DNA from: a virus
Strand: one strand, 5' to 3'
Virus record (IMG/VR): IMGVR_UViG_3300031877_000004
Location: 1 to 38,728 of that record
DNA length: 38,728 bases
Below are positions 26,658 through 34,051 of this stretch, piece by piece; position 1 is the stretch's first letter; each line of letters starts with the position of its first letter. The notes under the pieces were generated by a model. The model did no database searches, had not been told where the DNA came from, and worked only from the letters and a program-made list of their open reading frames with translations. Made by a program: the position numbers and the translations under genes.

Positions 26658-26734
26658 TGGAAGCGGGGGCCGGATTTGAACCAGCGACTTCCGGGTTATG
26701 AGCCCGGGGCCCTACCAAGCTGAGCCACCCCGCT
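26658..26734 (-). tRNA. tRNA-Met(CAT), initiator type
   Basis: A complete cloverleaf is visible on the minus strand: acceptor AGCGGGG paired with CCCCGCT, D arm GCTC/GGGC, anticodon arm CCGGG-CTCATAA-CCCGG, T arm GCTGG-TTCAAAT-CCGGC, and an encoded CCA. The A1-U72 pair together with three G-C pairs next to the anticodon loop are archaeal initiator features. The discriminator base is U where A is expected. It lies between the early and late operons and not beside the integrase. It could be functional, or a captured integration-site copy. Confidence 0.9.
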
Positions 26735-29975: not shown

Positions 29976-30542
29976 TTACTCCGCTTGCGCGGGAATGAAG
30001 CTTTCAACTGCGAAGGTTCCGAACCAGCCCTTGTGTTGTGGACGATAATCCAGCAAGCCCATCCGCGTGCCCGCGTCCTCCAGGATCTCTTTCAGCGTAG
30101 CCTCAATTCCGTCTGGTAAGCGCCTCGAATCGTAAACCAGTTGGAATTTGGCGCTCCATTTCGGCAGTTTAGCTCTGCCCTTGAGAACACGCTGTTTCTG
30201 GATCACTACTGCTCGCTCGTCCACTTCGTATTTGTCTGTGCCCAGCGGAACTTTCTCAGGCTCCACACGCATCGTCCCAGCCAAAAGGCCGGCGAGGCTC
30301 ATCCTGCGGATCTTGTACTGCTTCGCCGTGTTGATGATCATGCTGTACAAGGCTTCGCAAGGAATGTACAGCTGCTGTTTGCCGTCGATTTGTGCGATGT
30401 AGGCGCTCTTCGCTGCGTCGTCAGCCGTGCTGTAGTTCTCCATTCTCATTCTGCTTTTCGATTTCAAATTCTCAGGGTTCAAACGGTTCATTAACAGAGG
30501 CGTTAAGCCTCTGATTTCCACGTCTATTTTCTTGTAGCTCAT
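29976..30542 (-). CDS. Conserved 'GLTPLLMNR' family protein
   Basis: The ATG at 30542 follows a near-perfect GGAGGTGATTAAA. The 188-residue protein opens KKIDVEIRGLTPLLMNRLNP, a motif I know from many unannotated phage and archaeal-virus proteins found near recombination genes; the biochemical function is not known to me. Other blocks are YIPCEALYSMIINTAKQYKI and RVLKGRAKLPKWSAKFQLVY. The fold looks alpha/beta. A single-strand annealing or RNA-binding role is speculation. It stands immediately downstream of the pentamer array, so the array is its 5' leader. Confidence 0.65.
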   Translation of the reverse strand: MSYKKIDVEIRGLTPLLMNRLNPENLKSKSRMRMENYSTADDAAKSAYIAQIDGKQQLYIPCEALYSMIINTAKQYKIRRMSLAGLLAGTMRVEPEKVPLGTDKYEVDERAVVIQKQRVLKGRAKLPKWSAKFQLVYDSRRLPDGIEATLKEILEDAGTRMGLLDYRPQHKGWFGTFAVESFIPAQAE

Positions 30543-30566
30543 TTTAATCACCTCCATACCCATGAA

Positions 30567-31187
30567 GACCTAACCTCACTTGACCCTGCAAAACAGGGCT
30601 CCACCAAACTTCACATAACAGGACATCGCCAAGCCGCAATGATGCCAAGGCGAAGCTCGCCATGCATCGCCCAACATCACAGGACCATACAAAACCTAAA
30701 TGGCGCCTAACCAAGGCTTGCCCAGCAGCGCGCAACCGTGCAAAACCAGAACGAACAGTACCACGCCTAAGAATACTTAACCTCGATAACGCCTTAGCAC
30801 GCAAAACCATACAGTGCTTCACAGGACAAAACTTCACGATACCGTGCAGTGCCTCAACACTCCAAACCACACCACAATAAGACCTCACCTTAGAGTACAG
30901 TGCCCCAATGAACCCCGCTGCACCAAGCAGGACATCGCGAGACCATACCACACCTCGAAAAGCCTTACCTTGCCAGAGAAAGCCCCGCTCCACCCTTCCT
31001 CGCAACACAAAACCATAATAATGCCGTAGCTTGCAGAGCCAAACCCCACTTGACCCAACTGGACCGGACACCGCCCCTCCATGCCATGCCAGACCTCGCA
31101 ATACATCAATAGCGCCGAGCCTTGCCTTAGAGGACAGAACCGAACCCCGCAAAACCCCGCCAACCCACCCCTGACCATGCATTGCCT
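30567..31187 (-). repeat. Degenerate pentanucleotide array (NNGYN) with YYATYN hexamers
   Basis: Read on the minus strand, the 621 bases divide into 117 pentamers and six hexamers without remainder. In 99 pentamers base 3 is G and base 4 is a pyrimidine, where about 15 would be expected by chance; base 2 is usually G, base 1 and 5 vary. Typical units are TGGTA, AGGCT, TTGCG, CTGTC. The hexamers CTATTG, TTATTA, TTATTG, TTATCG, CCATTT and TCATTG shift the phase, dividing the array into blocks of 15, 17, 27, 17, 16, 11 and 14 pentamers. It starts at the stop codon of the ParB-like gene and ends just before the next gene's ribosome site. A period of five argues against coding. Confidence 0.9.
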
Positions 31188-31867
31188 TAACCATTAAACC
31201 GCACCTTCCCCAAAGCCTCTCGGCACTCCAAAACCAAATTTTTGAAGAATAGGTCATCCGTAGGGATGCAGCCAGATCTTGCCACATCGCGAATCAGCAT
31301 TAAGGCTTTCTTGAATTGCACCAACTCGCGGCCATTAGGCTGCCCATTGCAGTAAATCTTCTTGCCGCACGGCGCCGTTAAGCTCGTGATCGGCGCAGCT
31401 GATTCTCGATAAATCTCGCTGGCCGGGACATGGGTAAGCGCCACAATATCCTTAACATCGAACTTGTACTTCTGAAGCCTTTTGATATTCGCCTCTAATT
31501 CCTCTTTGCTGAAGCTTTTTCCATGGCTGCTGTTAAGCCGAACAGCCTCAGCAAACAATTCCGCCTCACTATCAAACGGCAGCTCAGCGCACTCGACATA
31601 ATCTATGCCTTTAAGCTTTCTGGCGCTTACGCGGTGAACCCCGTCAACGATAATTTTCTTCCCAACGAGAAGGCCAACCTTAACTGTTGGAAAAACGCAG
31701 CCCGCCTCCAAAGCCCGAGCGTAATTCTCCACCACATTTTTGTGATCAACTTCCATGCGCGGATAGAGACTCCAGTCGAAAATCAAGTCGGCGATCTTCT
31801 CAACACGAACAGGCGCACGGTCCCAATCCTTACCTAATTTGTCTCCCGGAGACAATTTGTCAGTCAT
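31187..31867 (-). CDS. ParB/Srx-fold protein 2
   Basis: The 226-residue protein carries a ParB/sulfiredoxin-like core: RVEKIADLIFDWSLYPRMEV, then GKKIIVDGVHRVSARKLKGI as the nucleotide-binding DGxHR box, and FAEAVRLNSSHGKSFSKEEL leading to a helical domain KYKFDVKDIVALTHVPASEI that resembles the ParB helix-turn-helix. The C-terminal region has two Cys. It is upstream of the pentamer array. No ParA is visible. AGGAGG precedes its ATG. Confidence 0.75.
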   Translation of the reverse strand: MTDKLSPGDKLGKDWDRAPVRVEKIADLIFDWSLYPRMEVDHKNVVENYARALEAGCVFPTVKVGLLVGKKIIVDGVHRVSARKLKGIDYVECAELPFDSEAELFAEAVRLNSSHGKSFSKEELEANIKRLQKYKFDVKDIVALTHVPASEIYRESAAPITSLTAPCGKKIYCNGQPNGRELVQFKKALMLIRDVARSGCIPTDDLFFKNLVLECREALGKVRFNG

Positions 31868-31870
31868 GCT

Positions 31871-32161
31871 TTACCTCCTAATCAATCTCCTTAACGGTTT
31901 GAGGTTCGTGCTTCCGCATTCTCCGCAGGTTTTGATGGCTGCCGCGCCTGTGTCAAAGTGGGTTCGAATAACGTTGTCCGGCGTCAGCAGCGTGTAGCAG
32001 TCTAGGCAGCGGTGCGTGGGTTTCACGCCCACGCGGTTTATGCAGCCGTGGTGACAGATCTCTCCGTTTAGCAAGTCGATGTTGCGAAGCACAGACTTAC
32101 CACAGATATGGCATAGTCTTCGCTCTGGCGAGATCTTGCGATATAGAAGGGTGATGCTCAA
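31871..32161 (-). CDS. Multi-CxxC zinc-binding protein (96 aa)
   Basis: The protein has CHIC near residue 17, CHHGC near 36, CLDC near 52 and CGECG near 79, enough for two zinc sites in treble-clef or ribbon form. It starts MSITLLYRKISPERRLCHIC from a TTG that overlaps the stop of the upstream ParB-like gene, so the two are coupled. It lies between the two ParB-like genes and may be an accessory DNA-binding factor. Confidence 0.65.
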   Translation of the reverse strand: MSITLLYRKISPERRLCHICGKSVLRNIDLLNGEICHHGCINRVGVKPTHRCLDCYTLLTPDNVIRTHFDTGAAAIKTCGECGSTNLKPLRRLIRR

Positions 32162-33162
32162 TTCGCTGATAACTCCTTAAGTTTATGATCGACTTTTCCA
32201 TCTGGAAACTCACGGTGGTCAATGAGGATTTCAATATGGCATTCTGGGCATTCGATCTTGAAGCCGGTGAGTAAAGGCTCCGCCTTAGGTTCCTGCGGCT
32301 CGAGAGTGGAATCCACAAACTTCTTAAGCTTCTCTACGGTCCAAGCTTCTTGCACTGTCTTCTCTGCAGCCTCAAGTTGCTTGTCTGGACGATCTTTCAA
32401 CCTCAAAAGTTGTTGCCCATGTTCTACCCCAATTTTGCCGTCGACGGCAAAATCTTTAACACCTTCGGGAAGGTAGGACATCTGAATGTATTTGTAGATG
32501 GTTCGCTCCGCTTGTTTTCCTCCAGTGAGCCCCTCGATTCGCTTGGCTAAGGCGCCTACTACTTGTTCTCCGTAGATCTTGCCAGATTCGTCTCTTTGCA
32601 TCTCATAGAGTTGCCGATATGCCTCTGCCTTGTCCATGGCTGGCAAATCGACGCGGTGAAGGTTCTCTGCAAGCTGCCACTCTATGATTTCACGTTCATC
32701 TTTGAAGGGGTGAACCCTGGCCAGAATGGTTGCGCCCATCCGAGATTTCATACCCTCGTAGCGCAGCCGACCCACCACTCCCCGATACAGACCTTCTTCG
32801 TTTGGAGGCGCCACCACAATCGGCTCGATCTGGCCATGACACGTGAAACTCATAGCCATGTTCTTAATGTCCTCTTCCTTCACGGCTTTCCGTATGGATT
32901 CCTTCCAAAAAATCCGGTTCAAGGGAATCTCTACATATTGATCTCCAGCAGCCGGCAATGGTGGAGGAGTCGGGATATACGTAGTAGGAGCCTCAGCCCT
33001 CCTAGCCTCCTTCGCGGCTTCTGTTACCACGGGAACACCCGCGAGCTCTCTAGGGCATCGGCGATTAAACACGGCGTAGTTTATGATGCGTATCCTGCAA
33101 TCGCGAAGCGTCAAGCCTTCACGCTTGCAGTCCTTACACGCTACGGGGATTGGAGCACTCAT
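32158..33162 (-). CDS. ParB-like protein 1 with zinc ribbons at both ends
   Basis: The 334-residue protein opens with CKDCKREGLTLRDC, a small zinc site, then a Pro-rich linker and a full ParB core from about 75: IPLNRIFWKESIRKAVKEED, GQIEPIVV, GVVGRLRYEGMK and AENLHRVDLPAMDKAEAYRQ, followed by a helix-turn-helix domain (ERTIYKYIQMSYLPEGVKDF) and a C-terminal CPECHIEI ribbon. Chromosomal ParB lacks such ends. Roles could be plasmid-like partition, DNA binding, or a nuclease-type activity as in phage ParB proteins. Confidence 0.85.
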   Translation of the reverse strand: MSAPIPVACKDCKREGLTLRDCRIRIINYAVFNRRCPRELAGVPVVTEAAKEARRAEAPTTYIPTPPPLPAAGDQYVEIPLNRIFWKESIRKAVKEEDIKNMAMSFTCHGQIEPIVVAPPNEEGLYRGVVGRLRYEGMKSRMGATILARVHPFKDEREIIEWQLAENLHRVDLPAMDKAEAYRQLYEMQRDESGKIYGEQVVGALAKRIEGLTGGKQAERTIYKYIQMSYLPEGVKDFAVDGKIGVEHGQQLLRLKDRPDKQLEAAEKTVQEAWTVEKLKKFVDSTLEPQEPKAEPLLTGFKIECPECHIEILIDHREFPDGKVDHKLKELSAN

Positions 33163-33497
33163 GTTTCTAATGCCTCCTCGATCTGATCCAGGATCTCTTG
33201 ACGTCGGTGCTTACTCAAAGAAGGTTCATACGAAAATCGCAGAACCTTTAAGCCCATCTTTCGCAGTTTCTCGTCGATAAGCTCGTCTTTCAAGCGTTGG
33301 TGTTCCGATTCATGTGGAGGACCATCCAAGTAGACGCATAACCCTTTCGCCGGCCAATAGTAGTCGGGAACCGTGGCTTCAAGCACAATCTCCGTGTCCC
33401 GGAACATTCCTTCAGTTAGGCGGCGTTCCTCCAAGCCTAAGAGCACATCCACCTCAGCATGGCTAGGCGAGACTCTCATTTTTTCTCGGAAACTCAA
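33159..33497 (-). CDS. Vsr/DUF559-like PD-(D/E)XK endonuclease
   Basis: The TTG at 33497 overlaps the previous stop and has GAGGG six bases upstream; ATG 33479 is an alternative. The 112-residue protein has the DUF559/Vsr pattern: SHAEVDVLLGLEER at the start, VPDYYWPAKGLCVYLDGPPH with the catalytic Asp pair region, then RLKDELIDEKLRKMGLKVLR. Related proteins nick or repair DNA. Its end overlaps the start of the ParB-like gene. Confidence 0.8.
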   Translation of the reverse strand: MSFREKMRVSPSHAEVDVLLGLEERRLTEGMFRDTEIVLEATVPDYYWPAKGLCVYLDGPPHESEHQRLKDELIDEKLRKMGLKVLRFSYEPSLSKHRRQEILDQIEEALET

Positions 33498-34051
33498 AAG
33501 TATCCCTCTGGGTATTCGTCCCATTCTTGTTCTAGGTCGTCGAAATCTTGTTCAACTTCCGCAAGCGGGTTAAAATCGCAGTTTGGGCAACCATAGAACT
33601 GTTGTTCATCGACGCAAGTGTCACAAGGAGAACCTGACTCATCGATGAATTTGCCTTTTCTAACTTTGTTCTGGAACCTTTGAACTTTCTTTTCGTCAGA
33701 GGCCCAATCATACGTGGCGCTTTGACTGTCTAAGCTTTCGGAGTCCCATCCTTGATTTGAAATATGCCATTCTCCCCTAATTTTGGGACCCACTTCCTGG
33801 AGAGCTGCTTGAATAGCTTTTTTTGTTTCTGGTTTTTCAATTAAATCATTGGACATGAAAATGATGATAGGGCTTCCAGCCATGTACCAAGGCACCTTAG
33901 GCAGATCGAGGAGAACGATAGCCATCTTTTTAGGATCAACCTTGCTGACACCGACTGCAAGAGGAACTTTCTTGAAATGACGCCGGAGCGTATCTATAAC
34001 CTCTGCAGGAATCGGTTTCTCAAAAGTCAATTCTCGAAGCTGAATATACAT
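33494..34051 (-). CDS. Hypothetical protein with C-terminal zinc site (185 aa)
   Basis: The N-terminal 90 residues look like a compact alpha/beta domain (LRRHFKKVPLAVGVSKVDPK, MAIVLLDLPKVPWYMAG). Near residue 142 comes CDTCVDEQQFYGCPNCDF, a zinc ribbon, and a strongly acidic tail ending DEYPEGYF. No family is recognised. It lies in an operon with a nuclease, ParB-like and zinc proteins. Confidence 0.65.
   Translation of the reverse strand: MYIQLRELTFEKPIPAEVIDTLRRHFKKVPLAVGVSKVDPKKMAIVLLDLPKVPWYMAGSPIIIFMSNDLIEKPETKKAIQAALQEVGPKIRGEWHISNQGWDSESLDSQSATYDWASDEKKVQRFQNKVRKGKFIDESGSPCDTCVDEQQFYGCPNCDFNPLAEVEQDFDDLEQEWDEYPEGYF

Follow-up and report, generated by a model that had tools for sequence, protein, structure and literature searches.

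The sequence analyzed here, referred to as the window, is the entire 38,728-nucleotide stretch of IMG/VR virus record IMGVR_UViG_3300031877_000004. Its minus strand contains an operon in which a gene coding for a ParB-like protein is followed by a long array of five-base units and by the "PLLMNR" gene, referred to below as vipr. The main features of the locus are as follows:

32158..33162, minus strand: second ParB-like gene of the same operon (ParB_N and HTH_ParB)
31187..31867, minus strand: ParB-like gene directly upstream of the array (ParB_N only; phrog_1033, 1.4e-6)
30567..31187, minus strand: putative VIPR guide array, continuous KGY-NN pentamers with delimiters
30548..30555, minus strand: Shine-Dalgarno-like sequence GGAGGTGA of vipr, recognized from sequence
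29976..30542, minus strand: vipr (phrog_4652, "PLLMNR"), predicted from profile homology and fold to encode a RAMP/Cas7-fold guide-binding protein

The start of vipr was set at the ATG at 30542-30540 by comparison of relatives and from the Shine-Dalgarno sequence. The operon also includes a DUF559 (Vsr-like endonuclease family) gene (33159-33524), which precedes the ParB-like genes, and a tRNA-Met(CAT) gene is carried by the virus at window positions 26658-26734. A hammerhead or other known RNA was considered for the window and rejected, the Rfam search having found tRNA only.

The minus strand from 31187 to 30567 partitions exactly, with no remainder, into 117 pentamers and six hexamers (CTATTG, TTATTA, TTATTG, TTATCG, CCATTT and TCATTG). 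In 99/117 pentamers, position 3 is G and position 4 is Y, and in nine, C occupies position 3; the partition and the count of 99 given in the initial annotation were reproduced. Fourier and autocorrelation analyses detected a period-5 signal that shuffling failed to reproduce: the parse score of the array was 102.6 compared to 31.2 ± 2.5 (maximum 41.2) in 500 dinucleotide-preserving shuffles, and letter identity at lags 5-20 was 0.395 compared to 0.287 ± 0.008 in dinucleotide-preserving shuffles. Identity was ca. 0.36-0.42 at lags 5, 10, 15, 20, 25, 30 and 35 and ca. 0.22-0.31 at the remaining lags. The Fourier peak was at 5.05 and not 5.00, as expected from the inserted hexamers.

While the period had been recognized correctly in the initial annotation, the natural phase of the unit is K-G-Y-N-N rather than NNGYN, with TGY units frequent alongside GGY. 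In five arrays, base 1 is G in 57% and T in 29% of units, base 2 is G in 88%, base 3 is T in 57% and C in 37%, and bases 4-5 are almost free. The array had been described as beginning on the upstream gene's stop codon and ending at the next ribosome site; the latter holds, but the pentamer grid actually passes through the stop codon and continues until it reaches the vipr Shine-Dalgarno sequence. A 247-aa open reading frame (30544-31287, minus strand) traverses the array. A protein-coding reading was rejected, since, by inspection of the unit, YNN and NNK are the only phases in which KGYNN can give stop codons; the open frame therefore follows from pentamer composition and is a by-product. No conserved protein is known from this region, and the initial observation stands.

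A search with the downstream protein retrieved four close viral relatives, and an alignment-based search retrieved a fifth (L130). The ParB-like and PLLMNR genes are separated by a long array of this kind in 5/5 relatives, which together with the window virus make up the clade and its six arrays. These six arrays contain 42 hexamers of the form YATYKN, in which the A and T are invariant and which are preceded by a pyrimidine in 42/42 cases, as well as 19 five-base variants at similar places. With few exceptions, 9-18 units are found between them, and successive stretches of units are joined without a recognisable tail, by the 5-6-nt elements only. We therefore read the hexamers as delimiters (Y|YATYKN) dividing a single continuous array into guides, and processing would be expected at the YATYKN sites. 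The initial annotation had counted the hexamers correctly, as elements that shift phase; their role is recast here, and the 5-nt delimiter TTCGA had been overlooked. The putative guides and delimiters of the window are listed below from the upstream end:

31112..31191, minus strand: guide 1, 16 units; decodes ..(H/Q)V(F/L)G(F/L)GSSP..
31106..31111, minus strand: delimiter TATTGA
31021..31105, minus strand: guide 2, 17 units; (I/M)(D/E)L(I/M)(I/M)GGPPC(Q/H)G(F/L)S, m5C methyltransferase motif IV
31015..31020, minus strand: delimiter TATTAT
30960..31014, minus strand: guide 3, 11 units; (F/L)V(D/E)SGG(F/L)L.., possibly TGT/DpdA-like (candidate)
30955..30959, minus strand: 5-nt delimiter TTCGA
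30880..30954, minus strand: guide 4, 15 units; V(I/M)L(D/E)P(F/L)AGSGTT, N4/N6 methyltransferase motif I
30874..30879, minus strand: delimiter TATTGT
30789..30873, minus strand: guide 5, 17 units; V(F/L)V(D/E)TT(I/M)(D/E)(F/L)P(D/E)T, PAPS-reductase/PP-loop motif
30783..30788, minus strand: delimiter TATCGA
30703..30782, minus strand: guide 6, 16 units; decodes ..YVTSL(F/L)T..
30697..30702, minus strand: delimiter CATTTA
30642..30696, minus strand: guide 7, 11 units; decodes (F/L)(I/M)P(D/E)(C/W)(D/E)(I/M)(D/E)S
30636..30641, minus strand: delimiter CATTGC
30560..30635, minus strand: guide 8, ca. 15 units; (F/L)(D/E)PY.(F/L)GP(F/L)S.., weak candidate for a small winged-helix-like protein

The target family of guide 1 is possibly a TGT/DpdA-like one. 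Guide 5 was at an early stage guessed to be an antisense m5C motif X, a guess replaced by the PAPS-reductase motif. The decodes of guides 6-8 (30567-30782), namely YVTSLFT, F(I/M)P(D/E)(C/W)(D/E)(I/M)(D/E) and PYxxGP(F/Y)S, recur across several clade arrays and were matched to no target family. In all, three or four of the window guides were assigned no target.

A blind scan was performed with the pattern GYNNN x14. GGYNN or GGCNN arrays turned up in many viral contigs unrelated to one another, and in most of the contigs inspected a PLLMNR-type gene directly adjoins the array. The PLLMNR-type proteins tested from these contigs all (8/8) match phrog_4652, a family of unknown function. In addition, 115 phrog_4652 loci were collected by protein alone and arrays were then looked for; a strong period-5 peak was found at most 700 bp from the phrog_4652 gene in 88/115 loci and farther off in 8/115. 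We conclude that the Vipr-type protein and the period-5 array belong together. The ParB-like gene upstream of the array is present in 6/6 clade members and in L074, and otherwise in 4/115 loci; it is a candidate for the clade's vipr-accessory gene.

Several loci outside the clade deserve mention. At L060:7880-10100, blocks of ca. 22 GTCNN units, which read GACNN on the strand of the gene, flank a minus-strand phrog_4652 gene and have a conserved separator, ca. 40 nt long; the product of this gene appears to be a Vipr homologue with a different unit core. The AT-rich L074 contig, which is unrelated to the window clade and carries a ParB-like partner outside of it, contains vipr, the ParB-like gene and array blocks of ca. 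18 units with AT-rich spacers between them (L074:2669-5318). At four loci, vipr and the array adjoin recombination genes of phage type: Sak4 with DUF669 in L018, as judged by profile, and, by eye, Sak4 in L089, ERF in L112 and RecT/YqaJ in L115.

The window PLLMNR protein matches phrog_4652 with 7.9e-16. A profile of 72 homologues searched with hmmsearch matched PDB entry 36pp_D, "SUSP1 Vipr protein" (E 1.3e-25), which was the sole convincing match of known structure. The AlphaFold (AF2) model of the window protein (pLDDT 89.8) has the Csm3/Cas7 fold, with a Z of 13.7 over 165 residues according to Foldseek and VIA. We therefore assign the locus to the VIPR systems. The BigNuz "repressor" was also considered as a Vipr homologue and discarded, the match (E 4e-3) being too weak. 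VIPR (Viral Interference Programmable Repeat), a relative of CRISPR, is presented in a preprint of April 2026 (PMC13142463). As its main text describes, the system consists of Vipr, a RAMP protein, and of vrRNAs made of alternating GGY and NN; double-stranded DNA is read by pairing of the NN, each unit skipping a single target base, usually the codon wobble, and the complex represses transcription (PMC13142463). The initial annotation could name no described element with this structure; the older literature indeed lacked one, the preprint having first been posted in April 2026. Its alternative suggestion, a transcript acting as polyvalent RNA ligand with the PLLMNR protein as its partner, was right in substance, the pentamer being the putative footprint of a RAMP-fold guide-binding protein.

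The guides were decoded by adding one wildcard to the NN of each unit, which yields codons NNx whose skipped base is the wobble position. Decoded in this way, clade arrays contain motifs of m5C methyltransferases (GGPPCQ(G/P)FS, IGNAVPP), N4/N6 methyltransferases (DPF(A/V/L/G)G(S/G)GTT, TSPPY, DPPY), type I HsdM-like proteins (CGTGGFL, TNPPFG) and PP-loop/PAPS-reductase proteins (SGGKDST, VF(V/I)DTT(I/V)EFPET). The decodes also include HVFGxGSS, DSGGF and LDNGA(Y/F), which we take to be possible motifs of 7-deazaguanine enzymes. One motif serine is specified by TCx in most arrays and by AGx in L004, a switch expected if the target is a protein-coding motif. With patterns that are textbook motifs picked after the arrays had been read, 34 matches were obtained in the six clade arrays, compared to a mean of 0.13 and a maximum of 2 in 2000 order shuffles. 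Two checks are independent of this choice: the other arrays and a Pfam scan. A single match was found in 351 other arrays (13,039 units), which indicates that the choice of targets is special to this clade. In the Pfam scan, for which ambiguous residues were settled by one fixed rule, sense pseudo-proteins matched DNA methyltransferase families in 6/6 cases, two of them exceeding the curated cut-off, and no match was found for four shuffled pseudo-proteins or for six antisense decodes. The NN dinucleotides are consistent with a 1-nt-skip reading of targets.

We consider it highly probable (ca. 0.93) that positions 30567..31187 house a VIPR guide array with guides against DNA-modification enzymes and that the gene downstream of it codes for Vipr. 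This rests on homology, fold, conservation of the array, its delimiters and decoding with controls.

Searches for targets were carried out in several sequence sets. In 1.7 Mb of unrelated phage DNA, guide 4 showed a 21/22 match to a gene in L091 coding for a methyltransferase (N6_N4_Mtase, 1e-44); the match arose under skip 1 alone, with ca. 0.003 such matches expected by estimate. The open frame of the L091 gene (L091:5589-6749) starts within a GGCAA tandem repeat. The clade-wide PAPS pattern (guide 5), whose motif had been named ahead of the genome scan, matched two places in 257 Gb, where ca. 0.1 were expected by chance (estimate). Both are PAPS_reduct genes matched in the predicted frame, one in a Bathyarchaeota and one in an Aenigmatarchaeota assembly. 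By eye, a proteasome-like Ntn-hydrolase gene is found near the matched gene at both presumed target loci (L255:5216-7216 and L270:403-1589), and the L255 locus additionally holds a ParB-like gene; the two loci may represent one type of mobile or defence cluster. Two window guides, searched with at most two mismatches, gave two and six matches in 201 archaeal genomes and none (0 and 0) with reversed patterns, and the matches inspected were methyltransferase motifs in frame. The archaeal matches only hint at a host; a search for the host through Vipr homologues in genome contigs found none.

A degenerate m5C motif pattern found five viral genes. Viral contigs scanned with the guide-6 pattern and the PAPS pattern yielded no match, and no full-length perfect target was found in the scans run. 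The guide-6 pattern gave three matches in 250 genomes compared to two for the reversed control, and these were dismissed as chance. Searches of the six clade genomes with methyltransferase motif patterns gave no convincing gene, in line with avoidance of self. Targets in the clade's own genomes were likewise rejected: no 11-unit decoded window exceeded 19/22, and the 19s were not under skip 1.

Transcription, processing, DNA binding, silencing and purpose are inferred here from sequence. The array would be transcribed together with the operon, and the Y|YATYKN or 5-nt delimiters would mark the ends of individual 9-18-unit guides. Vipr subunits with the Cas7/Csm3 fold would line the guide, one per 5 nt, gripping KGY, and the pentamer would be the footprint of this RAMP-fold guide-binding protein; the earlier idea of G-Y steps on alternating faces of the DNA found no support. 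The free NN dinucleotides would pair with one strand of the target DNA, with one target base skipped per unit. The recognised guides have the same sense as the coding strand of the predicted targets, the skipped base being the codon wobble, and hence they cannot pair with mRNA and would pair with the template DNA strand. They appear to spell invariant motifs (m5C IV and X, N4/N6 I and IV, HsdM, PP-loop/PAPS-reductase). Since the wobble is skipped and an invariant motif is read, one guide would suffice for an entire gene family and remain effective despite synonymous changes. Transcriptional silencing of modification genes in competing viruses or proviruses, or in the host, would be the most likely effect. 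It is probable, in our view, that the locus is a polycistronic VIPR array with YATYKN delimiters whose guides, by spelling universal catalytic motifs, bring about family-wide silencing that strips rivals (or the host) of DNA modification. Rivals whose modification genes are silenced would become open to restriction by the host.

The same guide array could be aimed not at rival viruses but at the host's own genes of restriction-modification, phosphorothioation and other modification or defence, a tentative reading to which we give slightly less than even odds. Both exact matches of the PAPS guide are in archaeal assemblies, the methyltransferase near-matches are in archaeal genomes, and the scans of viral contigs with two decoded patterns were empty (though the degenerate m5C pattern found its five viral genes). 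However, the L255 match lies, by eye, beside IS-like and ParB-like genes and so may itself be mobile, and if a type II methyltransferase were silenced, the host's own restriction enzyme would threaten the host itself and an integrating virus along with it. Rival phages and satellites are, moreover, the targets that the main text of the preprint reports (PMC13142463).

Other readings deny the array a guide function altogether. The initial annotation had considered a DNA element, i.e., a site of ParB loading or partition or an origin of replication or recombination, and the array does adjoin two ParB-like genes in a clade-conserved manner, with related arrays of bacterial phages lying near Sak4, RecT or ERF genes. 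Yet arrays track phrog_4652 genes (88/115 loci) whether ParB is present or absent, only 4/115 loci having a ParB-like gene, and hypervariable NN that encode protein motifs are unlike a binding site, so both the partition site and the origin are hardly credible. A structured leader had been proposed as well. TRAP binds trinucleotides spaced 2-3 nt apart, and Vipr might similarly bind the leader of its own mRNA and regulate its own translation, the NN carrying no information; the clade array indeed ends at the vipr ribosome site. But in other phages the array is located either upstream or downstream of vipr and sometimes on the opposite strand, as are the GGYNN arrays of L214, L217, L221 and L234, which cannot be the leader of vipr's own mRNA, and the NN are far from random. 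This makes a TRAP-like leader very improbable, though autoregulation by Vipr may occur as a side effect.

If the guide array is what we propose, the non-contiguous 1-nt-skip code of VIPR is confirmed independently, from sequence alone, in a distant lineage. The clade would use wobble skipping in such a way that a guide reads a protein motif rather than a gene, amounting to broad-spectrum, motif-level RNA-guided interference. The decoded guides suggest that DNA modification is contested among viruses and, together with the apparent processing signal, are available for experiments.

As described in the main text of the preprint, VIPR examples come from Escherichia phage SUSP1 and a P. fulva prophage, and the accessory genes are vap1-6 (PMC13142463). 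The window locus shares with them a homologous RAMP protein, GGY/NN pentamers beside vipr, the 1-nt skip at wobble and location in a viral genome, and its guides of 9-18 units are similar in length to vrRNAs, which have 9-16 repeats (PMC13142463). It differs in that the core is relaxed to KGY, a related consensus with TGY frequent, in that there is one continuous array of ca. 120-190 units, in which 5-6-nt delimiters separate the guides and tails are not recognisable, and in having a ParB-like neighbour and guides apparently aimed at catalytic motifs of DNA-modification enzymes. Type II VIPR (SUSP1-like) has separate vrRNAs, each with an invariant structured 3′ tail; the window array is continuous with delimiters only, and the locus is therefore not filed as type II. 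The word methyltransferase is absent from the main text of PMC13142463, while figs S17-S18 and data S3-S4 of that preprint may list such a variant. Four features are absent from this main text: a continuous array cut by delimiters, a core of KGY, a ParB-like gene as neighbour, and guides apparently directed at DNA-modification enzymes on the level of motifs. TRAP-RNA and other periodic RNA-protein arrays are similar in their trinucleotide contacts and spacing of two or three nucleotides, but the protein fold is another one, and here the spacer bases carry target information. With class 1 CRISPR-Cas, the locus has in common the Cas7/Csm3 fold, a periodic protein footprint on guide RNA and many guides per array, whereas identical repeats and spacers are replaced by a non-contiguous period-5 guide and the protein is a single small RAMP protein. 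The locus links a CRISPR-like array organisation to the proposed ancestor of CRISPR.
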